NCBI RefSeq assembly: GCF_001874145.1
Contig: NZ_MPCX01000009.1
Span: 62,001-126,000, forward strand
Source: Lacinutrix sp. MedPE-SW
Lineage (GTDB): Bacteria; Bacteroidota; Bacteroidia; Flavobacteriales; Flavobacteriaceae
Length of the DNA: 64,000 nucleotides
Direction of reading: 5' to 3'
In this document: positions 18,142 to 37,882 of the stretch, piece by piece
How positions within the stretch are numbered: the stretch's first letter is position 1
How the letters are laid out: each line of letters begins with the position of its first letter
Notes under the pieces: model-generated
Databases searched by the model: none
What the model was told of the DNA's origin: nothing
The model's input: only the letters and a program-made list of their open reading frames with translations
Position numbers and translations under genes: made by a program

Positions 18142-18711
18142 ATGAAACAAGAAACACGTAAAGAAGAAATAATAAGAGTAGCAGCTAAACTTTTTAAAGA
18201 AAAAGGATACAGTGCGGTTACTATGCGAGATTTGGCTACAGCTATGGGAATAAAAGCAGCTAGTCTTTACAACCATATCAATTCTAAACAAGATATTTTA
18301 AATACTATAATAATTTCAATTGCCGAAGAATTTACACAAGGCATGAAGCTGGTACAAGACTCAAAACTTTCTTGTATAGATAAGCTAAAGCAAATTGTGG
18401 CTTTGCATGTAAAAATAGCAAGTGAAAATATATATGGAATGGCATCCTTAAACAACGATTGGATGCATTTAGAAACACAATTAAACTATTATTTAAGTTT
18501 AAGAGATAATTACGAAAAAGATTTTCTTTCCATCATACAACAAGGTATTGAATCATCAGAACTTAAAAATGTAAATCCAGAAATTGTAATGTTTTCAATG
18601 CTTACCACATTACGTTCACTATACATATGGATACCTAAAAAAGAGGAACTAAACGCAAACGATTTAGCAAATAATTTAAATAAAGTACTCATTCACGGAA
18701 TTAACATTTAG
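18142..18711 (+). CDS. TetR/AcrR family regulator of the paa cluster
   Basis: This is a 189-residue protein with a TetR helix-turn-helix at about 8-52 (KEEIIRVAAKLFKEKGYSAV; AMGIKAASLYNHINSKQDIL) and an all-helical C-terminal ligand domain. It lies 68 nt upstream of paaE in the same direction. A perfect palindrome lies in that gap over the predicted transcription start, so repression of the paa genes, relieved by an aryl-CoA ligand, is the likely role. That is inference from position: PaaR-type TetR repressors respond to phenylacetyl-CoA in other bacteria. No paaX homologue is present. Confidence 0.88.
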   Translation: MKQETRKEEIIRVAAKLFKEKGYSAVTMRDLATAMGIKAASLYNHINSKQDILNTIIISIAEEFTQGMKLVQDSKLSCIDKLKQIVALHVKIASENIYGMASLNNDWMHLETQLNYYLSLRDNYEKDFLSIIQQGIESSELKNVNPEIVMFSMLTTLRSLYIWIPKKEELNANDLANNLNKVLIHGINI

Positions 18712-18727
18712 GTATCAAATTATTTCT

Positions 18728-18735
18728 TAACTTTG
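18728..18735 (+). promoter_or_regulatory. paa operon promoter -7 box
   Basis: TAACTTTG matches TAnnTTTG exactly, 44 nt upstream of paaE. A start of transcription about 5-7 nt downstream would fall at the left edge of the palindrome at 18743. Confidence 0.65.
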
Positions 18736-18742
18736 TATCACT

Positions 18743-18760
18743 AACTAACAAGTGTTAGTT
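18743..18760 (+). promoter_or_regulatory. Probable TetR operator
   Basis: AACTAACA-AG-TGTTAGTT is a perfect inverted repeat of 8-bp arms with a 2-bp centre. It begins 7 nt after the -7 box and ends 19 nt before the paaE start. The size and symmetry fit a TetR dimer site, and the position would block transcription initiation. Confidence 0.65.
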
Positions 18761-18779
18761 TAAGGATTAAGAAATAATA

Positions 18780-19853
18780 ATGGCACAATTCTATAAACTA
18801 AAAATACAAGATATATATAAGGAGACAGACGATACTTCGGTTGTTTCTTTCGCTGTTCCAGATAATTTAAAAAACGAATTCAAATTTCGTCAAGGTCAGC
18901 ATTTAACGCTAAAAGCAGATATTAATGGCGAAGATGTTCGTCGGTCATATTCGCTATGTTCTGGCCCAAACGATAACGAGTGGAAAGTTGCAGTAAAACA
19001 AATTTCCGGAGGTAAGTTTTCAAGCTATATAAATAATAATTTAAAAGCAGGAGACGAGTTAGAGGTTATGGTGCCAAGTGGTACCTTTGGTGTCGAGGTA
19101 CAGCCAGAAGCATCAAAAAATTATCTGTTTTTTGCAGCAGGAAGTGGTATCACGCCAGTGCTTTCAATGTTAAAAGCACATTTATCGGCAGAGCCTAACG
19201 CAACTTGCAAATTGTTTTACGTTAATAAAACAGCAAAATCAATAATCTTTAAAGAAGCCTTAGAGCAACTTCGAAACACATACTTTGGTAGACTAGAAAT
19301 CTATTATTTCTTAACCAAAGAACGTCGCGATATCGAGTTGTTTAACGGACGTTTTGACGATGAAAAGATGCAAGTTTTAACCAAAACGTTTATAGATATT
19401 CCAGACACGAGCGAAGTTTTCCTTTGCGGACCAGAAAAAATGGTACACTTTGTAAGCGACTACTTAATAAACGCAGGTTTACCTAAAGAACTCGTGCATT
19501 TCGAGTTATTCGTAACAGGTTTATCAGACGAAGATATTAAAAGAGCCGAGCGTCTAGCACAACAAAATGTAGAAGGAACAGAAGTAATCATAGTCGATGG
19601 CGGAAAAGAATTCGCCTTCACCATGACCAAAGAGTACGATAACATTCTCGATGCAGCCTTAGGTGCAGGAGCCGATTTGCCATTCGCCTGCAAAGGTGGC
19701 GTTTGTAGCACCTGCAAATGCGAGGTCATAGAAGGAAACGTAGAAATGAAAATAAATTACGCGCTAGACGATAAAGAAGTCGCGCAAAACCTGGTGCTAA
19801 GCTGTCAAGCAGTACCAACAACAGATAAAGTAATCGTCGATTTCGACGTGTAA
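18780..19853 (+). CDS. paaE: Phenylacetyl-CoA epoxidase reductase subunit PaaE
   Basis: PaaE passes electrons from NADPH to the di-iron oxygenase PaaA. Visible domains in the 357 residues are a FAD-binding barrel with RRSYS at 54-58, an NAD(P) domain with GSGITP at 121-126 and a CGPE motif near 216, and a C-terminal plant-type [2Fe-2S] ferredoxin with Cys304, Cys309, Cys312 and Cys342. The domain order and length match the family. Here it is the first structural gene, before paaABC, whereas E. coli has it after paaD. The second half uses noticeably more C-ending codons (GAC, ATC, TTC, GCC) than neighbouring genes. Confidence 0.95.
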   Translation: MAQFYKLKIQDIYKETDDTSVVSFAVPDNLKNEFKFRQGQHLTLKADINGEDVRRSYSLCSGPNDNEWKVAVKQISGGKFSSYINNNLKAGDELEVMVPSGTFGVEVQPEASKNYLFFAAGSGITPVLSMLKAHLSAEPNATCKLFYVNKTAKSIIFKEALEQLRNTYFGRLEIYYFLTKERRDIELFNGRFDDEKMQVLTKTFIDIPDTSEVFLCGPEKMVHFVSDYLINAGLPKELVHFELFVTGLSDEDIKRAERLAQQNVEGTEVIIVDGGKEFAFTMTKEYDNILDAALGAGADLPFACKGGVCSTCKCEVIEGNVEMKINYALDDKEVAQNLVLSCQAVPTTDKVIVDFDV

Positions 19854-20062: not shown

Positions 20063-21019
20063 ATGAGTGAAGAACAAGTAAAAAATTTAGAAGAACAATT
20101 CGAAGCACGTATCGCAAGAGACGAGAAAATCGAACCAAAAGATTGGATGCCAGAAAAATATCGTAAAACGCATATTAGGCAAATGTCGCAACACGCACAT
20201 TCCGAAATTGTAGGTATGCTTCCAGAAGGTAACTGGATTACAAGAGCACCATCTTTAAGACGTAAAGTAGCATTGCTTGCAAAAGTGCAAGACGAAGCAG
20301 GACATGGATTATATCTATATTCAGCAACCGAAACTTTAGGTATTTCTAGAGAAGAAATGTACGAGCAGTTGCACACAGGTAAAGCAAAATATTCATCTAT
20401 TTTTAACTATCCAACCATTACTTGGGCAGATATGGGAGCCATTGGCTGGTTAGTTGATGGCGCAGCAATTATCAATCAAGTACCACTGTGTAACACGTCT
20501 TATGGGCCATATGCAAGAGCAATGATTCGTGTGTGTAAAGAAGAAAGTTTCCACCAACGTCAAGGGTATGAAATCATGATAAAATTGGCAAACGGAACAC
20601 CAGAACAAAAAGAAATGGCACAAGATGCTTTAAATCGTTGGTGGTGGCCAAGTTTAATGATGTTAGGCCCAACAGATGCAGAGTCAATTCATACAGCACA
20701 ATCTATGAAATGGAAACTAAAACGTAAGTCTAACGACGATTTACGTCAGCAGTTCATAGACCAAACCGTTCCACAAGCAGAATTAATAGGTTTAACCATT
20801 CCAGATCCAGATTTAAAATGGAATGAAGAACGCCAAAGTTATGACTTTGGAGAAATCGATTGGGACGAGTTTTGGCAAGTTGTAAAAGGTCATGGACCAA
20901 TGAATAAGGAACGCATGAAAGCAAGAGTAAATGCATGGGAAAATGGAGCATGGGTTCGTGACGCAGCAATGGCACATGCCGAAAAGAAACAAGATAGAAA
21001 AGAGAAGAAGGCGGTTTAA
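20063..21019 (+). CDS. paaA: Phenylacetyl-CoA epoxidase catalytic subunit PaaA
   Basis: PaaA is the di-iron monooxygenase subunit that, with PaaB, PaaC and PaaE, converts phenylacetyl-CoA to the ring 1,2-epoxide. The 318-residue protein carries the carboxylate-bridged iron motifs DEAGH (77-81) and EESFH (about 160-164) in a four-helix bundle, plus the typical block [18 protein letters not shown]. The C-terminus is Lys-rich. The start follows a heptanucleotide repeat with no clear ribosome binding site. Confidence 0.97.
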
Positions 21020-21299: not shown

Positions 21300-21587
21300 A
21301 TGTCAACAAAAAATTGGCCCTTATGGGAAGTATTCGTAAGAAGTAAAAACGGATTAGAACATCGTCACTGCGGAAGTTTACACGCAGCAGATGAGGAAAT
21401 GGCATTAGAAAACGCAAGAGATGTCTACACCAGAAGAAGCGAAGGTGTAAGTATTTGGGTGGTAGAATCTAAGCATATTACAGCATCCAATCCTGAGAAT
21501 AATGGTGAAATGTTTGAACCTGCTCAAGATAAAGTATATCGTCATCCAACATTTTACGATTTACCAGACGAAGTAAAGCATATGTGA
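21300..21587 (+). CDS. paaB: Phenylacetyl-CoA epoxidase subunit PaaB
   Basis: This is a 95-residue protein, the small structural subunit of the PaaABCE epoxidase. The opening WPLWEVFVRSKNGLEHRHCG, the following HAADEEMALENARDVYTRR and the end FYDLPDEVKHM are characteristic of the family. The length is normal. It is separated from paaA by a 280-nt gap filled with repeat copy 1 and the start-proximal hairpin, which is unusual because paaA and paaB are normally tightly spaced. Confidence 0.96.
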   Translation: MSTKNWPLWEVFVRSKNGLEHRHCGSLHAADEEMALENARDVYTRRSEGVSIWVVESKHITASNPENNGEMFEPAQDKVYRHPTFYDLPDEVKHM

Positions 21588-21647: not shown

Positions 21648-22403
21648 ATGAAAAACGAAAACTTATACAAATACATACTTGGTATCGCAGACAATTCACT
21701 TATTCTTGGTCAAAGACTAGGAGAACTTACAGGTCACGGACCAAGCTTAGAAACAGATATTGCCTGTACAAATATTTCACTAGATTTATTTGGTCAAGTA
21801 CGAAGCTATTACCAATATGCAGCAAAAATAGCTGGTGATAATAGAACCGAAGATGATATTGCAATGCTTCGTAAAGAAAGAGAATATGTAAATGTGTTAT
21901 TGGTAGAACAACCAAATACCAATTTTGCATATACTATTGCACGTCAGTTTTTGTTCGATGTGTATCACTTTCTCTTTTTAACTCAATTAGAAAAAAGTAA
22001 GGATTTAACGCTTTCAGCAATTGCAACAAAGTCGCTAAAAGAAGTAAGCTATCATCAACGTTTTTCTACCGATTGGTTAAAACGATTGGGAGATGGAACA
22101 GCTGAAAGTAAAGAAAAAATGCAAGAAGCCATAGATGGTTTATGGACCTACACAGATGAGCTTTTTCATCAAACTGAAGCAGATAAAGCTATGGTTTCAG
22201 AAGGTGTTGGTGTAGATGTAACCAAACTAAAGGAAGCATATTACGAGAAAGTAGAAGCGGTTTTAAAAGAAGCAACTTTAACTGTTCCAGAATCTAAGTG
22301 GTTTCAAAAAGGAGGCAAACAAGGTATTCATACAGAACATTTAGGATATTTATTAAGCGATTTACAATACATGCAGCGTACCTATCCAAATATGGAATGG
22401 TAA
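21648..22403 (+). CDS. paaC: Phenylacetyl-CoA epoxidase subunit PaaC
   Basis: This is a 251-residue ferritin-like helical protein, the structural partner of PaaA in the epoxidase. It is related to PaaA but lacks the full set of iron ligands. Family blocks seen are LILGQRLGELTGHGPSLETD, KEVSYHQRFSTDWLKRLGDG and HTEHLGYLL. The start lies 16 nt after a short palindromic repeat. Confidence 0.96.
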   Translation: MKNENLYKYILGIADNSLILGQRLGELTGHGPSLETDIACTNISLDLFGQVRSYYQYAAKIAGDNRTEDDIAMLRKEREYVNVLLVEQPNTNFAYTIARQFLFDVYHFLFLTQLEKSKDLTLSAIATKSLKEVSYHQRFSTDWLKRLGDGTAESKEKMQEAIDGLWTYTDELFHQTEADKAMVSEGVGVDVTKLKEAYYEKVEAVLKEATLTVPESKWFQKGGKQGIHTEHLGYLLSDLQYMQRTYPNMEW

Positions 22404-22417
22404 CAAATCATTGATTT

Positions 22418-22446
22418 GTCATCCTGAACTTGATTCAGGATCTCAT
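22418..22446 (+). repeat. Short palindromic repeat before paaD
   Basis: The same GTCATCCTGAA...TTCAGGATCTCAT type as at 21602. An in-frame TTG inside it (22430) extends the paaD frame artificially. Confidence 0.75.
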
Positions 22447-22456
22447 AGAAAATAAT

Positions 22457-22957
22457 ATGACAACAACAGAGCAAAACATAGAATCAATATTAATTCCAAT
22501 TCTGGAAAAAGTGTCTGATCCTGAAATTCCAGTATTATCCATAATGGATATGGGAGTTGTACGTTCTGCTGTCATCGAAAATAATAAAGTGAAAGTTCAA
22601 ATCACACCAACCTATAGTGGTTGTCCAGCAATGGACGTGATTGGTGACGATATAAAAGCAGCTTTAAAAACCGCAGGATATGATTCTGAAATAGAATTAA
22701 TCCTTGCACCAGCTTGGACAACCGATTGGATTACACCAAGAGGACGAAAAGCACTAGAAGATTACGGTATTGCAGCACCTTTAAATGCAGAAGCAGATAA
22801 AGACGTGTTGCTAAATGGAAAACGATTGGTAAAATGTACTAATTGTGGTTCCACAAATACAAGATTAGTAAGTCAGTTTGGTTCTACAGCATGTAAAGCA
22901 CAATTTCAGTGCGACGATTGCCAAGAACCATTTGATTATTTTAAATGTCTCAAATGA
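22457..22957 (+). CDS. paaD: PaaD, iron-sulfur/maturation protein of the epoxidase
   Basis: This is a 166-residue protein. The N-terminal part is a DUF59/MIP18-like domain (DPEIPVLSIMDMGVVR; TPTYSGCPAMDVI) and the C-terminal part is a Cys-rich zinc-ribbon-like segment (CTNCGSTNTR, CDDCQEPFDYFKC). PaaD is thought to assist iron or iron-sulfur assembly of the epoxidase. I chose the ATG at 22457: the longer frame starts with TTG inside a palindromic repeat and would add nine residues derived from that repeat. Confidence 0.94.
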   Translation: MTTTEQNIESILIPILEKVSDPEIPVLSIMDMGVVRSAVIENNKVKVQITPTYSGCPAMDVIGDDIKAALKTAGYDSEIELILAPAWTTDWITPRGRKALEDYGIAAPLNAEADKDVLLNGKRLVKCTNCGSTNTRLVSQFGSTACKAQFQCDDCQEPFDYFKCLK

Positions 22958-23074: not shown

Positions 23075-23857
23075 ATGAGTAAAAGCATTCTTTTAAAAAT
23101 AGAAAATAAAATAGCGTACATCACGCTAAACAGACCAGAAGTATTTAATAGTATAAATAGAGAAATGGCATTTTTATTTCAAGATACTTTAGATGCTTGC
23201 GCAGCAAATGCAGAAGTTAGAGCCATTGTAATCACTGGAGCAGGAAAAGCGTTTGGTGCTGGTCAAGATTTAAAAGAAGTTACAGATCCAGACTTAAATC
23301 CTGGTTTTAAAAAAATATTAGACGAGCATTATAATCCAATAATAATAAAAATCCGAGCGATTAAAAAACCAATTATCGCAGCAGTAAATGGTGTTGCAGC
23401 TGGAGCAGCAGCCAACATTGCCTTGGCCTGTGATATTGTTGTAGCACATGAAAAAGTGAATTTTATACAAGCATTTAGTTTAATAGGCTTAATTCCAGAT
23501 AGTGCAGGAACGTATTTTTTACCAAGATTAATCGGTTTTCAAAAAGCGCAAGCTTTAGCCATGTTAGGTGATAAGATTGGAGCTGAAGAAGCAGAAAAAA
23601 TGGGAATGATTTACAAAATGATTCCTTTAGAAAACTTTGAAGAAGACGTTAATAAACTCGCTTTAAAATTAGCAAACATGCCAACCTTAGCTCTAGGTAA
23701 AATTAAAGAAGCATTTAATGAGTCATTAACCAATACTTTAGAAGAGCAATTGGCTTTAGAATCTAAATTACAAATAGAAGCAGCAAGTAGTAATGATTAT
23801 GCCGAAGGTGTTGCTGCATTTATAGAAAAACGTAAACCAAATTTCAAAGGCAATTAA
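23075..23857 (+). CDS. paaG: Ring 1,2-epoxyphenylacetyl-CoA isomerase PaaG
   Basis: This is a 260-residue crotonase-fold enzyme that isomerises the ring epoxide to oxepin-CoA and later shifts a double bond in the beta-oxidation steps. The PaaG marks are GQDLKEV near 63, the oxyanion-loop NGVAAGAAANIALACD, and Asp142 in GLIPDSAGTYFLPR, the Asp used by PaaG in place of the usual Glu pair. It ends KPNFKGN, which is normal. It lies between two short repeats. Confidence 0.92.
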   Translation: MSKSILLKIENKIAYITLNRPEVFNSINREMAFLFQDTLDACAANAEVRAIVITGAGKAFGAGQDLKEVTDPDLNPGFKKILDEHYNPIIIKIRAIKKPIIAAVNGVAAGAAANIALACDIVVAHEKVNFIQAFSLIGLIPDSAGTYFLPRLIGFQKAQALAMLGDKIGAEEAEKMGMIYKMIPLENFEEDVNKLALKLANMPTLALGKIKEAFNESLTNTLEEQLALESKLQIEAASSNDYAEGVAAFIEKRKPNFKGN

Positions 23858-23951: not shown

Positions 23952-25106
23952 ATGAACGTAGGAATAATAGGATCTGGTACAATGGGAAGTGGCATCGCAC
24001 AAGTTGCTGCAACTGCTGGTTGTAAAGTAAAATTATACGATACCAATCAAGCGGCTTTAGATAAAGCTAAAGCGAGTTTGGAGAAAATTTTAAATCGTTT
24101 AATTGAAAAAGGACGAATAAATACAGAAGAAAAAAACAGAATTCAATCTAACATTTCTTACGTAGATAGTCTAAAAGATTTAGCTGATGCCAACTTAACG
24201 ATCGAAGCTATTATTGAAAACTTAGATATCAAGAAAAAAGTGTTTTCAGAATTAGAAAGTTATGTTGCAGACGATTGTATAATCGCTTCAAACACATCTA
24301 GTTTATCTATAGCTTCTATTGCAGCTTCATTACAAAAACCAGAACGTTGCGTCGGAATTCATTTTTTCAATCCAGCACCTTTAATGAAATTGGTTGAGGT
24401 TATTCCAGCAATTCAAACCTCAAAAGAAGTACTTGAAAAATCAATTCAAACAATTAAAGACTGGAAAAAAGTAGTAGCAGTCGCTAAAGACACACCAGGT
24501 TTTATTGTAAATAGAGTCGCAAGACCTTTTTATGGCGAAGCTTTAAGAATTTATGAAGAAGGAATGGCGGATTTTGCAACTATAGATAATGCTTTAAAAA
24601 GCGTTGGTAAATTCAGAATGGGACCATTTGAACTTATGGATTTTATAGGAAACGATGTCAACTACACTGTAACCGAAACAGTATTTACAGCCTTTTATTT
24701 CGATCCAAGATATAAACCAGCATTCACACAAAAACGCTTTGCTGAAGCAGGATATTTAGGACGTAAGTCAGGAAAAGGCTATTATGATTATTCTGAAGGA
24801 GCTATAAAACCAGAACCAACAAAAGATGCAGCATTATCTGAAACTATTTTCAACAGAGTCTTAGTCATGCTAATTAATGAAGCAGCAGACGCACTATTTT
24901 TAAACATCGCATCTGCAGAAGATATAGACAATGCCATGACTAAAGGAGTTAATTATCCAAAAGGGTTATTGGCTTGGGCAGATGAAAAAGGCATCGATTG
25001 GTGTGTTAATAAAATGGATGAATTATATAACGAGTACCACGAAGATAGATACCGTTGCAGTCCATTATTACGTAAAATGAATAGAGAAAACAAAACGTTT
25101 TTTTAA
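23952..25106 (+). CDS. paaH: 3-Hydroxyadipyl-CoA dehydrogenase PaaH
   Basis: This is a 384-residue NAD-dependent 3-hydroxyacyl-CoA dehydrogenase. The dinucleotide motif GSGTMGSGIAQ is at about 7-17. The catalytic His and its surroundings read GIHFFNPAPLMKLVEVI, and the two helical C-terminal domains follow (KFRMGPFELMDFIGNDVN). In this pathway it oxidises 3-hydroxyadipyl-CoA to 3-oxoadipyl-CoA. It is longer than single-domain homologues (about 290) and has the duplicated C-terminal helical region. Its stop is followed immediately by the paaI start. Confidence 0.94.
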   Translation: MNVGIIGSGTMGSGIAQVAATAGCKVKLYDTNQAALDKAKASLEKILNRLIEKGRINTEEKNRIQSNISYVDSLKDLADANLTIEAIIENLDIKKKVFSELESYVADDCIIASNTSSLSIASIAASLQKPERCVGIHFFNPAPLMKLVEVIPAIQTSKEVLEKSIQTIKDWKKVVAVAKDTPGFIVNRVARPFYGEALRIYEEGMADFATIDNALKSVGKFRMGPFELMDFIGNDVNYTVTETVFTAFYFDPRYKPAFTQKRFAEAGYLGRKSGKGYYDYSEGAIKPEPTKDAALSETIFNRVLVMLINEAADALFLNIASAEDIDNAMTKGVNYPKGLLAWADEKGIDWCVNKMDELYNEYHEDRYRCSPLLRKMNRENKTFF

Positions 25107-25514
25107 ATGAAAGGCGAAGCAATTCCACATAAAATGTTAAGGCAGGACGCCTACAGCACGTGGCTAGGAATAGAAATTCTAGAATGCGAAATCGGACGCT
25201 GTAAAGTAGCAATGACTGTAAGAAAAGAAATGCTAAATAGCATGGGTAAAGCACATGGCGGAATCAGTTATTCCTTAGCTGATACAGCATTTGGATTTGC
25301 AGCAAATACACATGGTAAATATGCCGTTTCTATTGAAACAAGTATCAACCACATCGAAGCATTAAATGAAGGCGATTATTTAACAGCAGAATCTGTAATA
25401 GAAAACGTAAAAAATAAATTAGGTTTCAATATTATTGAAGTCAAAAGAGGAGAAGAATTAGTTGCACTTTTTAAAGGTGTTGTTTATCGAACAAATAAAG
25501 ATTGGGAAGAATAG
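25107..25514 (+). CDS. paaI: Phenylacetate-pathway thioesterase PaaI
   Basis: This is a 135-residue hot-dog-fold acyl-CoA thioesterase. PaaI-type enzymes hydrolyse dead-end aryl-CoA intermediates and so free CoA. Visible signs are the MLNSMGKAHGGISYSLADTAFG block (catalytic region with HGG and a following Asp) and SIETSINHIEAL. The ATG directly abuts the paaH stop (0 nt), so the two are translationally linked. The length is normal. Confidence 0.93.
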   Translation: MKGEAIPHKMLRQDAYSTWLGIEILECEIGRCKVAMTVRKEMLNSMGKAHGGISYSLADTAFGFAANTHGKYAVSIETSINHIEALNEGDYLTAESVIENVKNKLGFNIIEVKRGEELVALFKGVVYRTNKDWEE

Positions 25515-25774: not shown

Positions 25775-26986
25775 ATGAAAGAAGCATACATAATAGACGG
25801 AATTAGAACACCAATAGGAAACTACAAAGGCACATTATCTGCTGTTCGTACAGACGATTTAGGCGCTTTAGTAATAGAAGAAGTTGTAAAACGTAATCCA
25901 AACATCCCAAAAGAAGCATACGACGATGTTATTATGGGTTGTGCCAACCAAGCAGGAGAAGACAATCGTAATGTTGCACGTATGTCTTCACTCTTAGCAG
26001 GATTGCCATTTACAGTTCCTGGAGAAACCGTTAACCGACTTTGTAGTTCAGGATTGTCAGCAATTATTCATGCAAATCGTGCCATAAAAACAGGCGATGG
26101 AGATGTTTTTATTTCTGGTGGAGTAGAAAACATGACACGTGGTCCATACGTTATGGCAAAACCATCATCAGCATTTGGAGGAGATTCAAAACTATATGAT
26201 TCTACTTTCGGATGGCGATTTGTAAACCCGAAAATGCACGAAATGTATGGCACAGATGGCATGGGAATGACTGCAGAAAACTTAGTAGAAAAATATAATA
26301 TATCTCGCGAAGACCAAGACAAATTCGCACTTTGGAGTCAGCAAAAGGCAACCAAAGCACAAGAAAACGGACGACTAGCAAAAGAAATTGTTACTGTCGA
26401 AATTCCGCAACGTAAAAAAGACCCAATTCAATTTTCAAAAGATGAGTTTGTAAAACCAACAACATCTCTTGAGGTTTTAGGAAAACTAAGAGCAGCCTTT
26501 AAAAAAGAAGGCGGAAGCGTAACCGCAGGAAATTCTTCTGGATTAAACGATGGCGCTGCAGCAACCATTATAGCGAGTGAAGATGCAGTAAAAAAGTATA
26601 ATCTTAAACCATTAGCAAAAATTGTAAGTTCTGCAGTGGTTGGTGTCGAGCCAAGAATCATGGGTATTGGTCCAGTGCAAGCGTCTAATAAAGCATTAGA
26701 AAAAGCAGGTTTAACCATGGACGATATGGATATCATCGAGCTTAACGAAGCCTTTGCAGCACAAGCTTTGGCCTGCATTCGCGCTTGGGGATTAGAAGAT
26801 AACGACCCAAGAATTAATCCAAACGGAGGCGCTATTGCTATCGGTCATCCGCTTGGCGTTACAGGAGCAAGAGTGGCGTATTCTGCGGCTTTAGAGTTGC
26901 AGGAGCAGAATAAGAAATATGCGTTGATTACCATGTGTATAGGCGTTGGACAAGGTTATGCAGCAATTATAGAAAGAGTAGAATAA
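25775..26986 (+). CDS. paaJ: 3-Oxoadipyl-CoA / 3-oxo-5,6-dehydrosuberyl-CoA thiolase PaaJ
   Basis: This is a 403-residue thiolase. The acyl-accepting Cys90 lies in NRLCSSGLSAI. The His motif GGAIAIGHPLGVTGAR and the second Cys in MCIGVGQG lie near the C-terminus. In the phenylacetate pathway it releases acetyl-CoA at two steps and yields succinyl-CoA at the end. The length is typical. The 260-nt gap before it holds the diverged multi-hairpin element and a start-proximal hairpin. Confidence 0.95.
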   Translation: MKEAYIIDGIRTPIGNYKGTLSAVRTDDLGALVIEEVVKRNPNIPKEAYDDVIMGCANQAGEDNRNVARMSSLLAGLPFTVPGETVNRLCSSGLSAIIHANRAIKTGDGDVFISGGVENMTRGPYVMAKPSSAFGGDSKLYDSTFGWRFVNPKMHEMYGTDGMGMTAENLVEKYNISREDQDKFALWSQQKATKAQENGRLAKEIVTVEIPQRKKDPIQFSKDEFVKPTTSLEVLGKLRAAFKKEGGSVTAGNSSGLNDGAAATIIASEDAVKKYNLKPLAKIVSSAVVGVEPRIMGIGPVQASNKALEKAGLTMDDMDIIELNEAFAAQALACIRAWGLEDNDPRINPNGGAIAIGHPLGVTGARVAYSAALELQEQNKKYALITMCIGVGQGYAAIIERVE

Positions 26987-27222: not shown

Positions 27223-27825
27223 ATGAAAATACTAATTATAGGAGGAAACGGAACCATAGGCAAAAAAGTAACTGAAAGACTTTCAATAAAACATGAAGTT
27301 ATAGTTGCTGGACGAAATTCAGGTGATATAAATGTCGATTTTTCAGAATCTAAATCCATTAAATCTATGTTTGAAACTATTGGTAAACTTGATGCTATTG
27401 TTGCTGTTGCTGGTGATGCAAAGTGGGATAAATTCAACAATTTATCAGAAGAGGATTTTTATATTGGTATAAAAAGCAAACTAATGGGACAGGTAAATAC
27501 GGTTCGTATTGGTAAAGAGTTTTTAAACAAAAATGGTTCAATTACATTGTCAACAGGAATTTTGGCAGATGATCCAGTAGATATGACAACTAGTGCTGCT
27601 ATGGTTAATGGAGGAATTCACAGTTTTGTAAAAGCTGTCGCTTTAGAGTTAGAAAACGGTATTAGAATAAATGCTGTTTCTTCAGATTTAGTAGAAGATG
27701 CTTACGAAAAATACAAAGATTATTTTCCAGGAAATACACCAGTGTCTATGGACAAAATTGTAGATGGTTATGTAAAATCTATCGAAGGAAAAATTACAGG
27801 CAGAATTTTAAGGATTCTCGCTTAA
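27223..27825 (+). CDS. Short-chain dehydrogenase/reductase, atypical
   Basis: This is a 200-residue protein with an N-terminal Rossmann motif GGNGTIGKK (about 7-15) and later SDR landmarks (VAVAGDAKW, a Ser in TLSTGIL). The classical catalytic Tyr-x-x-x-Lys is not seen: the expected place reads NGGIHSFVKAVALEL, so the Lys is kept but the Tyr is missing. This occurs in a short SDR subfamily often annotated only as short-chain dehydrogenase. It lies between paaJ and paaZ, but no step of the known pathway needs it, so its role is open. Confidence 0.8.
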   Translation: MKILIIGGNGTIGKKVTERLSIKHEVIVAGRNSGDINVDFSESKSIKSMFETIGKLDAIVAVAGDAKWDKFNNLSEEDFYIGIKSKLMGQVNTVRIGKEFLNKNGSITLSTGILADDPVDMTTSAAMVNGGIHSFVKAVALELENGIRINAVSSDLVEDAYEKYKDYFPGNTPVSMDKIVDGYVKSIEGKITGRILRILA

Positions 27826-28014: not shown

Positions 28015-28036
28015 GATACCCATTTTCGTGGGCATT
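28015..28036 (+). repeat. Start-proximal hairpin before paaZ
   Basis: GATA, stem CCCA/TGGG (28019-28022 with 28029-28032), CATT, ending 3 nt before the paaZ ATG. A GTG inside it is in frame with paaZ. Confidence 0.75.
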
Positions 28037-28039
28037 AAG

Positions 28040-30589: not shown

Positions 30590-30654
30590 GTCATTCCGAA
30601 CGTAGTGAAGGAATCTTTTAATGAGATTGCCACGTCCTTCGTCCTCGCAATGAC
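30590..30654 (+). repeat. Compound GTCATTCC...AATGAC repeat before the paaF-like gene
   Basis: A GTCATTCCGAACG...GGAATC half is followed by a GAGATTGCCACG...GCAATGAC half; the outer GTCATT/AATGAC ends are inverted. It carries an open frame that falsely extends the next gene upstream. Confidence 0.75.
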
Positions 30655-30670
30655 AATAAAAAATAAAAAT

Positions 30671-31423
30671 ATGAGTGAACCTTATGTTAAGTTAGAAGTC
30701 AAAAACCAAGTAGGATACATAGAATTTTTTCATCCTGCTCACAATTCTTTGCCAGGTAATATTCTGGCTGAATTAGCACAAACGATAACCGATGCAGGAA
30801 CAAACGATGCAATAAAAGTTATTGTGCTTAAAAGTGGAAAAGACAGAACATTTTGTGCTGGAGCAAGTTTTAAAGAATTAATTAATATTAATGATGCAGC
30901 AACAGGAAAAATTTTCTTTTCAGGCTTTGCTAATGTGATTAACGCCATGCGTAAATGTCCAAAATTTATAATTGGTCGCATACAAGGTAAAACTGTTGGT
31001 GGTGGTGTAGGATTAGCAGCTTCAACCGATTATTGTATGGCTTCAAAATATGCAGCAATAAAATTAAGCGAACTAAATATTGGAATTGGACCATTTGTTG
31101 TTGGACCAGCAATAGAGCGTAAAATTGGTTTAAGCGGTATGTCTCAAATCGCAATAGATGCTAATAGTTTTTATCCTGCAGAATGGGCAAAACAAAAAGG
31201 ATTATTCACACACGTATTTGAAAGTAATGAAGAACTAGATGAGGCAGTTAAAGCAACAGCAGAACATTTATGTACTTATAACCCAGATGCCATGCAAGAA
31301 ATGAAAAAAGTGTTTTGGCAAGGTACAGATCATTGGGATGATTTGTTGGCAGAACGTGCTGCAACTAGTGGAAAACTTGTACTTTCAGAATTTACTAAAG
31401 AAAAACTTAAAGGATTTAAATAA
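30671..31423 (+). CDS. paaF: Enoyl-CoA hydratase/isomerase, PaaF-like
   Basis: This is a 250-residue crotonase-fold protein. Visible are the oxyanion loops (FCAGASFKEL; GKTVGGGVGLAASTDYC) and a Glu in LSELNIGIGPFVVGP at the place of the hydratase acid. PaaF hydrates 2,3-dehydroadipyl-CoA, a step otherwise unassigned in this cluster, so the call rests on family plus context; a second PaaG-like isomerase is the alternative. I chose the ATG at 30671 because the 22-residue upstream extension is encoded by a palindromic repeat. Confidence 0.75.
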   Translation: MSEPYVKLEVKNQVGYIEFFHPAHNSLPGNILAELAQTITDAGTNDAIKVIVLKSGKDRTFCAGASFKELININDAATGKIFFSGFANVINAMRKCPKFIIGRIQGKTVGGGVGLAASTDYCMASKYAAIKLSELNIGIGPFVVGPAIERKIGLSGMSQIAIDANSFYPAEWAKQKGLFTHVFESNEELDEAVKATAEHLCTYNPDAMQEMKKVFWQGTDHWDDLLAERAATSGKLVLSEFTKEKLKGFK

Positions 31424-31826: not shown

Positions 31827-32423
31827 ATGGTTTATAGGTTTAAAGGTTACACACCAGTTGTTCACGAGTCAAGTTTTGTACATCCTTTGGCTGCAGTAAC
31901 AGGAAACGTTATTATAGGCAAAAACTGTTACATTGGTCCAGGAGCAGCTATTCGTGGAGATTGGGGACAAATCATTTTAGAAGATGGAGTAAACGTACAA
32001 GAAAACTGTACAGTGCATATGTTTCCAGGTAAATCTATTACATTAAAAGAAAGTGCTCATGTTGGTCATGGAGCCATAATTCATGGAGCCAATTTGGGTA
32101 GAAATTGTCTAATTGGAATGAACACTGTAATTATGGATGATGCCGAAATTGGTGATGAAAGTATTGTTGGGGCTATGGCATTTGTAAAAGCTGAAACTAT
32201 GATACCTAAACGTAGTTTAGTTGTAGGTAATCCTGCAAAAATAGTAAAGCAAGTAAGCGATGAAATGATTGCATGGAAAACAAAAGGAACAGCGTTGTAC
32301 CAACAATTACCAGCAGATTGTCATGAGACATTACAAGAAGTTGAGCCTTTAAGAGAAGTGCCAGAAAATATGAAAATGCAAGAAGACGTTTATAAAACGC
32401 TTAGAGAAACTTTTAAAAAATAA
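31827..32423 (+). CDS. paaY: Left-handed beta-helix protein PaaY (gamma-carbonic-anhydrase-like)
   Basis: This is a 198-residue hexapeptide-repeat protein. The turns IGKNCYIGPGAAIRGDWGQI, HVGHGAIIHGANLGRNCLIG and MNTVIMDDAEIGDESIVGAM show the gamma-CA fold with the His residues that bind metal. PaaY proteins in phenylacetate clusters act as thioesterases for off-pathway CoA thioesters. The C-terminal helix (LREVPENMKMQEDVYKTL) is typical of PaaY rather than CaiE. Context with the other paa genes supports this over a general transferase. Confidence 0.88.
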   Translation: MVYRFKGYTPVVHESSFVHPLAAVTGNVIIGKNCYIGPGAAIRGDWGQIILEDGVNVQENCTVHMFPGKSITLKESAHVGHGAIIHGANLGRNCLIGMNTVIMDDAEIGDESIVGAMAFVKAETMIPKRSLVVGNPAKIVKQVSDEMIAWKTKGTALYQQLPADCHETLQEVEPLREVPENMKMQEDVYKTLRETFKK

Positions 32424-32449: not shown

Positions 32450-32926
32450 TTATAAAACGGCACTCAAATCTATTACATTAGTTTCTTTTCCTGTAGAAAG
32501 CGTAATTAAACTTTGTACGTTTCCTAAATAAGGTAATAATGTTAATTTCGAAATAATAAAAGTCTCGTAAGCTTCAATATCTTCAACAACAAGTTTTAAA
32601 AGATAATCAAAATTACCGCTAACTCTGTGGCACTCTACCACTTCAGGAAAATTGTTTATTTCGTTTACAAATTTCTCTAAATAACTTCTGGTATGTCCTT
32701 GCAAAGTGATGCCAATAAAAACTGTAAGTTTTAGTCCTATTTTCTTTTTGTCTAAAACGGCAACATATTTTTTAATATAACCTTCTTTTTCTAATTTTTT
32801 AATACGCTCAAAAATTGGTGATGTAGTCATTCCTAATTCCTTAGCAATGCTTTTTGTTGTTCTATTACTATTCGCTTGTAGAATATTTAAAATTTGAGTG
32901 TCTATTTTATCAAGAGTATTTAACAT
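32450..32926 (-). CDS. Lrp/AsnC family regulator
   Basis: This is a 158-residue protein with an N-terminal helix-turn-helix (LDKIDTQILNILQANSNRTT; GMTTSPIFERIKKLEKEGYI) and a C-terminal RAM/AsnC ligand domain (VECHRVSGNFDYLLKLVVED). It is transcribed away from the 2-oxoacid dehydrogenase E2 gene across a 169-nt gap. Lrp-type regulators such as BkdR control branched-chain oxoacid dehydrogenase genes in other bacteria, so it probably senses an amino acid and controls the dehydrogenase genes. The control is inference. Confidence 0.9.
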   Translation of the reverse strand: MLNTLDKIDTQILNILQANSNRTTKSIAKELGMTTSPIFERIKKLEKEGYIKKYVAVLDKKKIGLKLTVFIGITLQGHTRSYLEKFVNEINNFPEVVECHRVSGNFDYLLKLVVEDIEAYETFIISKLTLLPYLGNVQSLITLSTGKETNVIDLSAVL

Positions 32927-33095: not shown

Positions 33096-34400
33096 TTGAA
33101 GAATTTTGAATTAAAAATGCCCAAAATGGGCGAAAGTATAACAGAAGGAACCATCATCAATTGGTTAATTTCTGAAGGAGATAGTTTTGATGAAGGAGAT
33201 ATTATTCTTGAAGTAGCTACAGATAAAGTAGATAACGAAGTACCTGCGCCAGCATCTGGAATATTGGTTAAAACCTTATTTCAAGCAAAAGATGTTGTTC
33301 CTGTTGGAGAAGTAATTGCTGTGTTAGAGGTTTCAGAAGAGGTAAAATCTTCTAATAAAACAAAGGTCTCGTCAAACACTGTCGAGACGTCTCAAAAGAA
33401 ACAAAAGACACCAAAAAGACCAAAACCAGTTCAGCAAGCATCAGCTTCAACTTCATTTTCAACATCAAATTCAAATACATTCTTTTCACCATTAGTACTC
33501 GAAATTGCTAAAGAACATCATATTAGTTTTGAAGAATTAGCCAGAATACCAGCAACAGGTCATGAAGGCAGATTGCGCAAAAGTGATGTGTTTCAATATA
33601 TAGAAGAAGGCAGACCATACAAATTTGCACAACCAGTAGCCGAAAAAGATCCAACAGCATATCGCATTCCACAATTGCAATTCGATAAAGGCAAAGGAAA
33701 AGTGATTGAAATGGACAGAATGCGTCAAATGATTGCAGATCATATGGTGTATTCAAAACACACATCACCGCATGTTACAGCTTATGTTGAGGCAGATTTA
33801 ACCAATATGGTAAATTGGCGAAATGCTAATAAAGTGGCGTTTCAAGAAAAGTATGGTGAGCGTTTAACCTTTACACCATTGTTTGTAGAAGCGGTAGCAA
33901 AAGCAGTAAAAGATTTTCCAAACATTAACGCTTCGGTAGATGGTAATAACATTATAGTAAAAGAAGACATCAATATTGGTATGGCAACCGCATTACCAAG
34001 CGGAAACTTAATAGTACCTGTAGTAAAAAATGCAGACACAAAAGATTTAAAAACCATTGCTAGCAATGTTAATGAACTGGCAGGAAAAGCAAGAGAAAAT
34101 AAATTAGCAGGAGACGATATAAAAGGCAGTACGTTCACAATATCAAATGTTGGAACTTTTGGTAGCGTCATGGGAACACCAATAATAAATCAACCAGAAG
34201 TTGCAATTCTTGCCTTAGGAATTATTAAAAAACGACCAGAAGTTATCGAAACCGAAAACGGAGACGAAATCGCAATACGTAGCATGATGTATCTATCATT
34301 ATCATTCGATCATCGTGTTGTAGATGGTTTCCTTGGTGGAAGCTTCGTAAGACGTGTAGCCGATTATTTCGAGCAATTTGATATCAATAGAGACATTTAA
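33096..34400 (+). CDS. 2-Oxoacid dehydrogenase E2 (dihydrolipoamide acyltransferase)
   Basis: This is a 434-residue E2 core protein. It has an N-terminal lipoyl domain (lipoyl Lys44 in EVATDKVDNE), a Ser/Thr/Lys/Pro-rich linker, a peripheral-subunit-binding domain (SPLVLEIAKEHHISFEELAR) and a C-terminal catalytic domain with DHRVVDGFLGG. I use the TTG start at 33096: the next ATG (33117) would remove the first strand of the lipoyl fold (FELK). The neighbouring fused E1 and aminotransferase point to a branched-chain or aryl oxoacid complex rather than pyruvate dehydrogenase. No E3 is in the window. Confidence 0.9.
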   Translation: MKNFELKMPKMGESITEGTIINWLISEGDSFDEGDIILEVATDKVDNEVPAPASGILVKTLFQAKDVVPVGEVIAVLEVSEEVKSSNKTKVSSNTVETSQKKQKTPKRPKPVQQASASTSFSTSNSNTFFSPLVLEIAKEHHISFEELARIPATGHEGRLRKSDVFQYIEEGRPYKFAQPVAEKDPTAYRIPQLQFDKGKGKVIEMDRMRQMIADHMVYSKHTSPHVTAYVEADLTNMVNWRNANKVAFQEKYGERLTFTPLFVEAVAKAVKDFPNINASVDGNNIIVKEDINIGMATALPSGNLIVPVVKNADTKDLKTIASNVNELAGKARENKLAGDDIKGSTFTISNVGTFGSVMGTPIINQPEVAILALGIIKKRPEVIETENGDEIAIRSMMYLSLSFDHRVVDGFLGGSFVRRVADYFEQFDINRDI

Positions 34401-34484: not shown

Positions 34485-34512
34485 ACAATAAAAAATAAAG
34501 TTTAATTAATGA

Positions 34513-34535
34513 GATACCCACTTTCGTGTGGGCAT
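34513..34535 (+). repeat. Start-proximal hairpin before the aminotransferase
   Basis: GATA, stem CCCAC/GTGGG (34517-34521 with 34528-34532), CAT, ending 6 nt before the ATG. The upstream in-frame start at 34509 reads through this hairpin. Confidence 0.75.
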
Positions 34536-34541
34536 AAAATT

Positions 34542-35609
34542 ATGAAACATAACATTTCAATAACCACAGTAACCGAATCTAAAGTTAAAGGCATAGACTT
34601 TAACAATATTCCTTTAGGTACAACCTTTACAGATCACATGTTTATTTGTGATTATAACAACGGTGTTTGGGAAAATCCAAGAATAGAACCAATGGGAATG
34701 ATTCCTACGCATCCAGCAGCCATGGCATTGCACTACGGTCAAGCCATTTTCGAAGGTATGAAAGCAACAGTAGATGCAGATGGAAACCCAATGTTATTTA
34801 GAGCAGATAAAAATGCAGCACGATTAAATACCAGTGCAGACCGTATGGGAATGCCACATTTCCCAACAGATTTGTTTGTAGAAGGCTTAACAAAATTAGT
34901 AGATTTAGAGCGTAATTGGATTCCACCAACCGATGGTAGCGCACTTTATTTAAGACCATTTATGTACGCAGACGAAGCCTTTATAGGTATGCGTGCAGCA
35001 ACACATTATAAGTTTATAATCATGGCATCGCCGGCAGGACCATTTTTTAGTAAGCGCATTAGGTTGTGGGCCGAAAAACATTATATACGTGCCGTAAATG
35101 GTGGAACAGGAGAAGCAAAAGCAGCCGGAAACTACGCCGCAGCCATTCGTCCAACAGAATTAGCAAAAGCAAAAGGATTCGATCAAGTATTGTGGTTAGA
35201 TGCTATCGAGCACAAATACATTCAAGAAGTTGGAACCATGAATATTTTCTTTAAAATCGACGGAAAATTCATCACACCAAATCGAGACGGTTCTATATTA
35301 GACGGAATCACGCGCATGAGTGTAATCGATATTTTAAGAGATAAAGGTTACCAGGTTACAGAGCGTAAAATAACTATAGACGAGATTCAAGAAGCGGCAA
35401 AAAATAAAACATTAGAAGAAGCTTTTGGTACAGGAACAGCCGTTGGTATTGCTTACATTCAAGACATTGGAGTAGGCGATGAGGTTATACACGTATCCAA
35501 CGAAAGTCCAGTAGGTTTAGACGTTAACAATACTTTAAACGCCATTAAAACTGGTAAAATAGAAGATAAATTTGGTTGGATGCTAAAAGTAGAAAATCAG
35601 TTAGCTTAA
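34542..35609 (+). CDS. ilvE: Branched-chain-type aminotransferase (class IV)
   Basis: This is a 355-residue fold-type IV PLP aminotransferase. Family marks are MALHYGQAIFEGMKA, LYLRPFMYADEAFIG, the region EHKYIQEVGTMNIFF with the PLP site, and LDGITRMSV. It interconverts branched-chain, and often aromatic, amino acids with their 2-oxoacids. It lies between the E2 and the fused E1 of an oxoacid dehydrogenase, so it can supply that complex. The start at 34542 excludes eleven residues encoded by the hairpin repeat. Whether phenylalanine is a substrate cannot be read from the sequence. Confidence 0.9.
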   Translation: MKHNISITTVTESKVKGIDFNNIPLGTTFTDHMFICDYNNGVWENPRIEPMGMIPTHPAAMALHYGQAIFEGMKATVDADGNPMLFRADKNAARLNTSADRMGMPHFPTDLFVEGLTKLVDLERNWIPPTDGSALYLRPFMYADEAFIGMRAATHYKFIIMASPAGPFFSKRIRLWAEKHYIRAVNGGTGEAKAAGNYAAAIRPTELAKAKGFDQVLWLDAIEHKYIQEVGTMNIFFKIDGKFITPNRDGSILDGITRMSVIDILRDKGYQVTERKITIDEIQEAAKNKTLEEAFGTGTAVGIAYIQDIGVGDEVIHVSNESPVGLDVNNTLNAIKTGKIEDKFGWMLKVENQLA

Positions 35610-35619
35610 AATATTTTGG

Positions 35620-35701
35620 GCGTTACCACAAGGGTCGCGCTTTCCGTTATATCTTTTTTGCTTTTAATGGCAAAAAAGGATGCCACATCAATCGCTAACG
35701 C
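35620..35701 (+). repeat. GCGTTA...TAACGC intergenic element, copy C
   Basis: An 82-bp element in the same orientation as copy A: GCGTTACC at the left, AAGGGTC, TATATCTTTTTTG, CAAAAAAGGATG and TAACGC at the right end. Confidence 0.8.
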
Positions 35702-35769
35702 AAACTAACGTTAACAAAAAAATCTTTTATACTAATAAAAAAGATTGATTTTGAGATTATAACAAAATA

Positions 35770-35790
35770 GATACCTGCTTTCGCAGGCAT
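35770..35790 (+). repeat. Start-proximal hairpin before the fused E1
   Basis: GATA, stem CCTGC/GCAGG (35774-35778 with 35783-35787, loop TTTC), CAT. The AT of that CAT is part of the first possible start codon (35789). Confidence 0.75.
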
Positions 35791-35794
35791 GAAT

Positions 35795-37882
35795 ATGAAA
35801 AAAGAAACACTAAAAAAAGGATTTTCAAAACTCTGCACAGCAAAAGCAATGGCAGAATTATACGAAGCTAATTTTAAGCAAGTCTCTAAATACGTACACG
35901 CTACATCAAGAGGTCACGAAGCTATCCAAATAGCTTTAGGTATGCAGTTATTACCACAAGATTATGCGTTTCCATATTATAGAGATGATGCCATGTTATT
36001 ATCATTTGGTTTAGAACCTTACGATTTAATGTTGCAATTATTAGCAAAAAAAGACGATCCATTTTCTGGCGGAAGAACGTACTATTCGCATCCAAGTTTA
36101 AAGGATGACGATAAGCCAAAAATACCACATCAATCCTCAGCAACAGGTATGCAAACCATACCAGCAACAGGTGTGGCTATGGGAATGAAGTATAAAGAAC
36201 TACAAGGATTGGATGATTATAGTTTAGAATCGGATCCTGTCAGTTCGAGCACAGTCGAGAACGCTCTAAATCCAATAACCGTTTGTTCTTTAGGCGATGC
36301 CTCTGTAACCGAAGGTGAAATAGCCGAAGCCTTCCAAATGGCAGCTTTAAAGCAAATGCCAATTTTATATTTAGTACAAGATAACGGTTGGGATATTAGT
36401 GCCAATGCAGCAGAAACAAGAGCGCAAAATGCTTTTGAATATGCTCAAGGTTTTAAAGGCTTAGAAGCCATTTCAATAGATGGTGCTAACTTTACAGAAA
36501 GTTACCAAGCGCTAGAAAAAGTAATAGAAACTATTCGTACAGAACGCAGACCATTTTTAGTACATGCAAAAGTACCATTGTTAAATCATCATACGTCTGG
36601 TGTAAGAATGGAATGGTATCGAGACGATTTAGACGAGGCGCGTTCTCGTGATCCATATCCAGTAATAAAACAACAATTATTAGATGCAGGATTTTCAGAA
36701 CAAGAAGTTGAAGAGGTAGAAAATTCCGCGAAAGCGAAAGTACAATCAGATTTTGAAAAAGCCTTAAAAACCGAAGACCCAAAACCTGAAGATTTATTTA
36801 CAAACGATTTTGTACCAACACCAATTACTGAAGAGCAAGGAACACGTTCACCAGAAGGTGCAGATAAAGTGGTAATGGTAGATTGTGCGTTATTCGCAGT
36901 AGAAGAATTAATGAAAAAGCATAAAGAATGCTTGCTATACGGTCAAGATGTTGGTGGCAGATTGGGTGGAGTTTTTAGAGAAGCAGCAACATTAGCTCAA
37001 AAATTTGGAGACGACCGCGTATTTAATACACCAATACAAGAAGCTTTTATTGTAGGTTCAACCGTTGGTATGAGCGCAGTTGGATTAAAACCAATTGTTG
37101 AGGTTCAGTTTGCCGATTATATTTGGCCAGGATTAAATCAGTTATTTACAGAAGTAAGTAGAAGTTGTTATTTATCTAACGGTAAATGGCCAGTTAGCAT
37201 GATACTTCGTGTACCAATTGGAGCTTATGGTAGTGGTGGACCTTATCATTCATCTTCAGTAGAATCTGTAATAACAAATATTAGAGGTATAAAAATTGCC
37301 TATCCAAGTAATGGTGCCGATTTAAAAGGTTTAATGAAAGCGGCTTACTATGATCCAAATCCAGTGGTTATTTTAGAACACAAAGGTTTGTATTGGTCTA
37401 AAGTACCAGGAACACAAGGAGCAACATCTGTTGAGCCAAGTGAAGATTATGTTTTACCATTTGGAAAAGCTTGGGTTTTACAAGAAATCTGGAAACAAGA
37501 AAATGTAGAAACGTTGACTATTGTTACTTATGGAATGGGCGTACATTGGGCAATGAATGCATCAGAAGAATTAGGCATGCAAGACCAAATAGAAGTTATT
37601 GATTTACGTACCTTATTTCCTTTAGATGAAGACACAATCATGAAATCGGTTAAAAAAACAGGAAAGTGTTTAGTGGTGACTGAAGAGCCTTCAAATAATA
37701 GTTTTGCAAGAGCGTTATCTGGAAAAATTCAAGAAGAATGTTTTAAATATTTAGATGCACCAGTAATGACAATTGGTAGTGAAAACATGCCGGCAATTCC
37801 TCTAAACTCAACTTTAGAGCAAACCATGATTCCTTCAACAGATAAGGTGAAAGCTAAAATTGAACAGCTAATTAATTATTAA
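35795..37882 (+). CDS. 2-Oxoacid dehydrogenase E1, alpha and beta fused
   Basis: This is a thiamine-diphosphate-dependent E1 of about 695 residues with both subunits in one chain. The alpha half (about 1-330) shows SRGHEAIQIALGMQLLP, the TPP motif GDASVTEGEIAEAFQ and NHHTSGVRMEWY. The beta half (about 360-695) shows ECLLYGQDVGGRLGGVF, FNTPIQEAFIVGSTVGMSA and PIGAYGSGGPYHSSS. Such fused proteins serve branched-chain 2-oxoacid complexes in Bacteroidota. The ATG at 35795 is preferred over 35789, which overlaps the hairpin. It is the last gene of the block, followed by a terminator at 37927. Confidence 0.9.
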   Translation: MKKETLKKGFSKLCTAKAMAELYEANFKQVSKYVHATSRGHEAIQIALGMQLLPQDYAFPYYRDDAMLLSFGLEPYDLMLQLLAKKDDPFSGGRTYYSHPSLKDDDKPKIPHQSSATGMQTIPATGVAMGMKYKELQGLDDYSLESDPVSSSTVENALNPITVCSLGDASVTEGEIAEAFQMAALKQMPILYLVQDNGWDISANAAETRAQNAFEYAQGFKGLEAISIDGANFTESYQALEKVIETIRTERRPFLVHAKVPLLNHHTSGVRMEWYRDDLDEARSRDPYPVIKQQLLDAGFSEQEVEEVENSAKAKVQSDFEKALKTEDPKPEDLFTNDFVPTPITEEQGTRSPEGADKVVMVDCALFAVEELMKKHKECLLYGQDVGGRLGGVFREAATLAQKFGDDRVFNTPIQEAFIVGSTVGMSAVGLKPIVEVQFADYIWPGLNQLFTEVSRSCYLSNGKWPVSMILRVPIGAYGSGGPYHSSSVESVITNIRGIKIAYPSNGADLKGLMKAAYYDPNPVVILEHKGLYWSKVPGTQGATSVEPSEDYVLPFGKAWVLQEIWKQENVETLTIVTYGMGVHWAMNASEELGMQDQIEVIDLRTLFPLDEDTIMKSVKKTGKCLVVTEEPSNNSFARALSGKIQEECFKYLDAPVMTIGSENMPAIPLNSTLEQTMIPSTDKVKAKIEQLINY

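Follow-up and report, generated by a model that had tools for sequence, protein, structure and literature searches.

A ligase-free phenylacetate cluster in Lacinutrix sp. MedPE-SW with a putative phenylpyruvate dehydrogenase complex at its entry

Introduction

PaaK is usually treated as the first enzyme of the paa (phenylacetate degradation) pathway, and the canonical aerobic pathway starts with this ligase. A paa cluster in a 64-kb stretch of the genome of Lacinutrix sp. MedPE-SW (hereafter the window, i.e., the whole stretch analysed) has the same PaaABCDE, PaaG, PaaH, PaaI, PaaJ, PaaZ, and PaaY set and a local TetR-type regulator, but PaaK was not found in the genome, and an entry through the E1 and E2 components of a 2-oxoacid dehydrogenase, coded downstream of the paa genes, is proposed instead. 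With a probability of about 0.77, a dedicated phenylpyruvate dehydrogenase complex would feed the pathway directly with phenylacetyl-CoA, and paaK would be a rare add-on; the substrate and product are predicted from sequence. The genome is 3.04 Mb long in 22 contigs and 99.99% complete, and the window is located on contig 22.

In the accessible part of PMC7089894, PglB and PglC of Streptomyces pristinaespiralis are described as a pyruvate-dehydrogenase-like complex converting phenylpyruvate to phenylacetyl-CoA. That complex serves phenylglycine antibiotic biosynthesis and, in the same part of the source, has its alpha and beta chains coded by separate genes, whereas in the window the E1 is fused, is accompanied by its own E2, and belongs to a degradation cluster. 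A direct conversion of phenylalanine via phenylpyruvate to phenylacetyl-CoA, bypassing free phenylacetate, is described for Phaeobacter inhibens in the accessible part of PMC7497051. As far as that part goes, this route likewise skips free phenylacetate, but an E1/E2 complex is proposed in the window instead. The Phaeobacter route is reportedly attributed to an enzyme of the indolepyruvate-type ferredoxin oxidoreductase (IOR) type, not to an E1/E2 complex. The E1s of 2-oxoisovalerate and branched-chain dehydrogenases (2bp7, 1qs0, 1um9, 1dtw) are of the same fold family as the window E1, with an alpha half binding thiamin diphosphate (ThDP) and a beta part.

No description of an E1/E2 entry in Bacteroidota was recognised in the literature searched, with most subscription journals outside its reach. 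The word phenylpyruvate is absent from the accessible part of PMC9007349, and the accessible parts of PMC10199937 and PMC5954211 hold nothing on such an entry. According to its accessible part, a 2026 survey covering 6,536 genomes was anchored on the ligase and called complete pathways uncommon in Flavobacteriia (PMC13186573).

E2, Aminotransferase, and Fused E1 of the Window

Three genes on the plus strand follow the paa genes. The first codes for E2, a dihydrolipoyl acyltransferase (33096..34400) with lipoyl, E3-binding, and 2-oxoacid_dh domains, the second for a class IV aminotransferase of IlvE type II (34509..35609; PRK13357, 393.8 bits, cut-off 307), and the third for a fused alpha-beta E1 of 697 aa (35789..37882) with E1_dh, Transket_pyr, and Transketolase_C domains, which is the proposed phenylpyruvate dehydrogenase. 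This domain content confirmed the gene assignment made in an earlier, sequence-only reading of the window, and all the E1 domains and the lipoyl, E3-binding, and catalytic E2 domains of a 2-oxoacid dehydrogenase complex are present. Divergent from E2 is an Lrp/AsnC-type regulator (32450..32926, minus strand; PRK11169, 114.4 bits, under cut-off). The best matches of E2 are the E2s of pyruvate and 2-oxoglutarate dehydrogenases, and it is not specially branched-chain-like. The window E1 shares 98% identity with its counterpart in Winogradskyella sediminis and 96–99% with those of two further genomes of the same genus.

Residues G169, D170, and N199 of the window E1, which we take to belong to the ThDP-binding motif, are kept and are invariant in 24 E1 orthologues. 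The E1 of a canonical branched-chain 2-oxoacid dehydrogenase (BCKDH) is expected to match the BCKDH alpha chain along its length; the alpha part of the window E1 matched 1dtw_A in its C-terminal half alone, with 65.1 bits over residues 160–342, compared with 2.2 bits for its N-terminal half. The same half scored 42.9 bits against 1um9_A, with Val36 opposite Phe66, a phenylalanine that presumably lines the substrate pocket in related enzymes. Val36, His37, Ser40, Arg41, Ser116, Ser117, and Thr119 to Gln122 are invariant in the 24 orthologues, and Ala118 is kept in 23. A PF02779 search of the genome yielded seven proteins. Other fused E1s are a 667-aa protein on contig 1, with 160.8 bits to BCKDH alpha (2j9f_A) over residues 20–307 of its alpha part, and an 810-aa protein on contig 19. 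The latter adjoins a protein with AprA-type methyltransferase domains (region L014:6358-10497).

In the proposed mechanism, phenylalanine would first be transaminated, giving phenylpyruvate. Clusters with the class IV aminotransferase would use that enzyme and the others a different aminotransferase, the identity of the acting enzyme being presumed. E2 and the fused E1, together with an E3 encoded elsewhere, would form the dedicated complex that turns phenylpyruvate into phenylacetyl-CoA by oxidative decarboxylation. This product would enter PaaABCE directly, without free phenylacetate and without an ATP-dependent ligase. Where PaaK is present in these bacteria, it would be an add-on for free phenylacetate.

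Absence and Rarity of PaaK

The lack of paaK claimed for the window extends to the genome at the thresholds used, and a paaK elsewhere, which had been named as the finding that would speak against the proposal, was not found. TIGR02155 at E ≤ 0.001 gave two weak matches of 55.3 and 18.7 bits, with a cut-off of 646.3. The better one, a 435-aa protein (L013:9301-10608), was rejected as a hidden PaaK, having 55 bits to TIGR02155 and no Pfam match at 1e-5; by its length and polysaccharide-looking neighbour genes we judge it CapK-like. Three proteins were found with PF00501. One has a 636-residue frame, the size of acetyl-CoA synthetase; one of 591 aa has fatty-acid ligases as best models, all under cut-off, and adjoins beta-oxidation-looking genes; the third, of 356 aa, we take for MenE from its neighbour genes.

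Among 299 genomes of the family, PaaK was accepted in seven (E ≤ 1e-60; 555–599 bits, none over the 646.3 cut-off), all PaaA-positive and at least six also with E1. As PaaA occurs in 106 of the 299, a survey that starts from the ligase would miss the majority of these pathways. In a genome of the same genus with an E1 99% identical (G091), an AraC regulator, aldehyde dehydrogenase, PaaK, and GMC oxidoreductase lie between paaY and Lrp. In G274, PaaK lies beside a GMC oxidoreductase (identified by model) and, by similarity and sight, an aldehyde-dehydrogenase-like and an AraC-resembling gene. The same four kinds of genes thus stand together in two genomes at different places (L048:1409-6745 and L051:4473-9918), and these arrangements fit a use for free phenylacetate from alcohols or aldehydes. 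PaaK lies alone between paaY and Lrp in G093, after E1 in G102, and apart from paa in G022 and G089.

Co-occurrence and Gene Neighbourhoods in the Family

An orthologue of the window E1 is present in at least 101 of the 299 family genomes, and both E1 and PaaA in at least 99, among the matches listed (orthologues 71–100% identical, other listed matches 32–36%; small E1 fragments may escape). E1 alone was found in two genomes and, among the same matches, PaaA alone in seven. The association has a Fisher p of 8e-68, ignoring relatedness. Near-complete genomes number 249, 89 of them with PaaA, and two of these 89 (G105, G210) are without E1 among the matches listed.

PaaA and E1 are coded on one contig within 40 kb in 88 of the 99 genomes, in 86 of them in the same direction with E1 10.9–22.3 kb downstream; ten genomes have the two on different contigs and one (G206) has them far apart. 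The contigs of the seven PaaA-only genomes end less than 10.7 kb past paaA, compared with the smallest PaaA–E1 distance of 10.9 kb, and that of G210 ends in E2. In these assemblies (64–96% complete), E1 was not found elsewhere among the matches listed, where fragments could be hidden, and the seven are not clean counterexamples. Completeness is 82 and 87% for the two genomes with E1 alone, one of which (G158, locus L058) still has ECH2 and paaY before E2.

The predicted conservation of E2–E1 next to paa was borne out in related genomes. Sixty family loci were fetched, overlapping with the named-genome set below, and E2 adjoins E1 in all 48 with a full-length E1. The aminotransferase, proposed as part of the same conserved set, is present in the window cluster but is optional (25/48) and of branched-chain type; a divergent Lrp gene is in 6/48. 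The named-genome set consists of the best 80 of 591 confirmed loci, where close relatives prevail and some loci are incomplete. At least two paa genes were found in 65 of these 80, E2 in 71, the aminotransferase in 49, and Lrp in 18; the genera include Winogradskyella, Lacinutrix, Bizionia, Aquimarina, Kordia, Dokdonia, Psychroflexus, Aequorivita, and some Flavobacterium. Outside the family, G621 has a class I/II aminotransferase after E1 and a divergent Lrp-type gene.

In several loci, E1 is followed on the same strand by a 367-aa gene (L110:12083-13186, alike in L019, L035, L057, L097, L111, and L126). The L110 gene is a bestrophin by Pfam (PF25539), with counterparts alike, and similar genes of 352–353 aa were seen in L107, L108, L117, and L119. 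From sequence, this product may possibly be an anion channel of the pathway.

Co-occurrence Across the Class

The class set comprises 395 genomes, 285 with PaaA, three of those in the family. From the other 282, 80 near-complete genomes were sampled, one to four per family from 54 families. All 80 have E1 at 56–75% identity, broken by stops in G383 and with one stop in G431, and PaaK is in five of the 80. The PaaA-negative sample was 80 of about 99 genomes outside the family, taken by handle order. Between near-complete class genomes with and without PaaA, the occurrence of E1 differs with p of 5e-30, ignoring relatedness. Six of the 54 families (f4, f16, f29, f34, f36, f63) also hold 13 near-complete genomes with neither PaaA nor E1. 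A metagenome-assembled genome labelled Rickettsiales (L172) has a 73% identical E1 and is perhaps a mislabelled or mixed bin.

Regulation

The palindrome ACTAAC-N4-GTTAGT (18744..18759), a probable PaaR operator, is exact in the window and ends 20 bp before paaE. Among relatives, 42 of the 46 regions preceding paaE carry it without mismatch. From sequence context, the TetR protein coded beside it probably binds the palindrome, and a similar half-site is, we assume, known for PaaR of Corynebacterium. With two mismatches allowed, the window has 2 matches and ten randomised windows have 1–7 per 64 kb; a single inexact site therefore means little.

Within two mismatches, the palindrome precedes E2 in 36 of 119 distinct loci, compared with 10 of 1920 regions preceding other open reading frames (ORFs) in the same loci. 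Before removal of duplicates, it was in 37 of 120 E2 loci, in 35 of the 37 with at most one mismatch, and its first base lies 18–25 bp ahead of the predicted E2 start in 28 of them. An Lrp-type gene is in 23 of the 119 distinct loci, none of which has the palindrome. The remaining 60 loci have neither, and in 50 of them no more than 125 bp separate E2 from a paaY on the same strand, where co-transcription is therefore likely.

Leucine Breakdown and Window-Type E1

An E1 limited to branched-chain oxoacids had been named as another finding that would speak against the proposal. As a leucine marker, the genome's own carboxylase of the methylcrotonyl-CoA carboxylase (MCC) beta type was used, identified by homology only; its best solved matches are a beta chain named for propionyl-CoA carboxylase (PCC), AccD1, and MCC beta chains, with the remaining PCC chains far below. 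The marker is in 40/40 chosen E1-positive and 39/40 chosen E1-negative family genomes. Being equally common with and without E1, it suggests that leucine breakdown does not need the window-type E1, and the counts speak against the restriction. A canonical BCKDH E1 would track branched-chain amino acid catabolism, and by these counts the window-type E1 does not. NF004283, which we take to be a hydroxymethylglutaryl-CoA lyase model and a leucine marker, matched 7/299 genomes at 1e-60, five scoring just at the threshold.

Weighing of the Alternatives

The paa pathway described here is ligase-free and has its own 2-oxoacid dehydrogenase; gene position links the two within the family, and co-occurrence links them across the class. 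The complex would act on phenylpyruvate. The claim that E1/E2 stands in place of PaaK is supported by the absence or rarity of paaK, the co-occurrence of E1 with PaaA, their linkage in the family, and the palindrome at some E2s.

Several observations weigh against this assignment. Among solved structures, the E1 beta part matches 2-oxoisovalerate dehydrogenases best. The clustered aminotransferase scores as branched-chain type over its cut-off and is absent from 23/48 family clusters. No PaaR-type site precedes E2 in the window, where E2 is of the Lrp type. Outside the family, paa-type genes were near E1 in 7 and E2 beside E1 in 1 of 20 chosen loci. In the PaaA-negative class sample, E1 was found in 20/80 genomes, or 9/62 near-complete ones. 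These nine come from f10, f17, f22, f29, f9, and f24 (one each) and f52 (three), with f9, f24, and f52 not among the 54 sampled families. All three near-complete f52 genomes (G359, G395, G427) have E1 without PaaA, for which another E1 role and a diverged or lost epoxidase are the alternatives. Seven E1-positive, PaaA-negative loci were fetched; a crotonase or paaZ homologue is near E1 in two (L184, L185) and not in the other five, two of which are on 4- and 11-kb contigs.

The likeliest alternative is a complex of broad specificity for branched-chain oxoacids and phenylpyruvate, whose link to paa would stem from its additional production of phenylacetyl-CoA. The aminotransferase type in 25/48 family loci, the kinship of the E1 beta part, and the nine near-complete genomes with E1 only all agree with it. 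We nevertheless regard it as unlikely, since the genome has another fused E1 closer to BCKDH, and 198/299 family genomes have no E1 orthologue among the matches listed, with the leucine marker as common in 40 such genomes as in 40 that have E1.

A further alternative is an ordinary branched-chain 2-oxoacid dehydrogenase whose sole link to paa is their shared place in amino acid catabolism, with phenylacetyl-CoA coming from elsewhere. It would account for the fact that both the E1 beta part and the aminotransferase are homologous to branched-chain enzymes; the marker counts, the E1–PaaA tie, the rarity of paaK, and the PaaR-type site at E2 (36/119) make it highly improbable. IOR-type enzymes can convert phenylpyruvate to phenylacetyl-CoA, which would suit a supply by an unrecognised ligase, CoA-transferase, or IOR-type enzyme, with E1/E2 otherwise employed in the regulon. 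For such a supplier speaks the direct conversion of phenylalanine in Phaeobacter, as given in the accessible part of PMC7497051, but with three PF00501 proteins and a TIGR02155 maximum of 55 bits in genome searches directed at ligases, and with the co-occurrence of E1/E2 with PaaA left unexplained, we give it very little credence.

Genes of the paa Cluster and Intergenic Repeats

The paa proteins were named by NCBIfam models (PaaE, A, C, D, G, H, I, J, Z, Y), several under the curated cut-off. The near-complete set that had been claimed, paaEABCDGHIJZY plus an extra crotonase, was recovered at the claimed places by NCBIfam and Pfam models, and the epoxidase PaaABCDE with PaaG, PaaZ, PaaJ, and PaaH of the canonical pathway is present, with the PaaE, PaaG, and PaaH models under cut-off. 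All genes from the regulator to paaY are on the plus strand. The first codes for the TetR-family regulator (18142..18711), the PaaR candidate, matched by TetR-type models only, all under cut-off; a TetR homologue precedes paaE in most relatives' loci extending that far. It is followed by paaE, the epoxidase reductase (18780..19853; TIGR02160, 409.7 bits, cut-off 420.8), paaA (20063..21019; TIGR02156, 535.9 bits), paaB (21300..21587; PF06243, 154.2 bits), paaC (21648..22403; TIGR02158, 281.4 bits), and paaD (22430..22957; TIGR02159, 180.8 bits).

Next are a paaG-like isomerase (23075..23857; TIGR02280, 291.6 bits, cut-off 345), a paaH-like 3-hydroxyacyl-CoA dehydrogenase (23952..25106; PRK08268, 520.2 bits, cut-off 508; TIGR02279, 479.5 bits, cut-off 669), a paaI-like thioesterase (25107..25514; TIGR02286, 102.9 bits, cut-off 118.9), and paaJ, the 3-oxoadipyl-CoA thiolase (25775..26986; PRK09050, 618.9 bits, and pcaF, 607.5 bits, both over cut-off). 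A short-chain dehydrogenase (27223..27825; PRK07578, 267.5 bits) is in only some relatives' clusters. The paaZ gene (28028..30577) matched TIGR02278 with 874.9 bits over residues 9–666 of 849; about 180 C-terminal residues are beyond the family model, and homologues in L049 and L050 are similar, with 837 and 832 aa. At the paaF-like position is an enoyl-CoA hydratase/isomerase (30605..31423; ECH_1, 120.8 bits), whose 25 listed NCBIfam matches all stay under their cut-offs. The last is a paaY-like thioesterase (31827..32423; TIGR02287, 241.4 bits, cut-off 319.6).

An aromatic amino acid (phenylalanine) hydroxylase is divergent from the cluster (16283..18025, minus strand; PRK14056, 837.6 bits), as had been stated, and would be the competing branch to tyrosine. 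A homologue is divergent beside TetR/paaE in L025, L039, L040, L046, and L047, and not in L041.

Related intergenic repeats precede several window genes, but the hairpins are weaker evidence than the sequence-only reading made of them, and the idea that they point to common control was dropped. Three hairpin patterns have 4, 3, and 3 matches in the window, a total of 10 compared with 2 in six unrelated stretches of about 100 kb total, where two of the three match once each, both in L015. The hairpins are dispersed repeats, denser in the window, and not indicative of common control. One type has four copies within 21.6–23.9 kb of the window. A 196-nt direct repeat, 90% identical, is at 21077-21272 (before paaB) and 27048-27243 (before the short-chain dehydrogenase). 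After the ThDP-dependent E1, a small ORF that we label ThiS-like and ThiC, for thiamin synthesis, are located at 38222-40318; they follow E1 also in G091 and are unmatched in other mapped relatives' loci.

Implications for the Bacteroidia

For the Bacteroidia, it seems rather probable that paa is at root a phenylalanine pathway, entered ancestrally through a dedicated PaaR- or Lrp-controlled phenylpyruvate dehydrogenase complex that would form its own family with a remodelled alpha pocket, and with PaaK as a later, rare acquisition serving free phenylacetate. If the proposal is true, a whole E1 clade now modelled as pyruvate or branched-chain dehydrogenase would have another substrate, and many Bacteroidia would degrade phenylalanine without free phenylacetate, sparing the ATP cost of the ligase.

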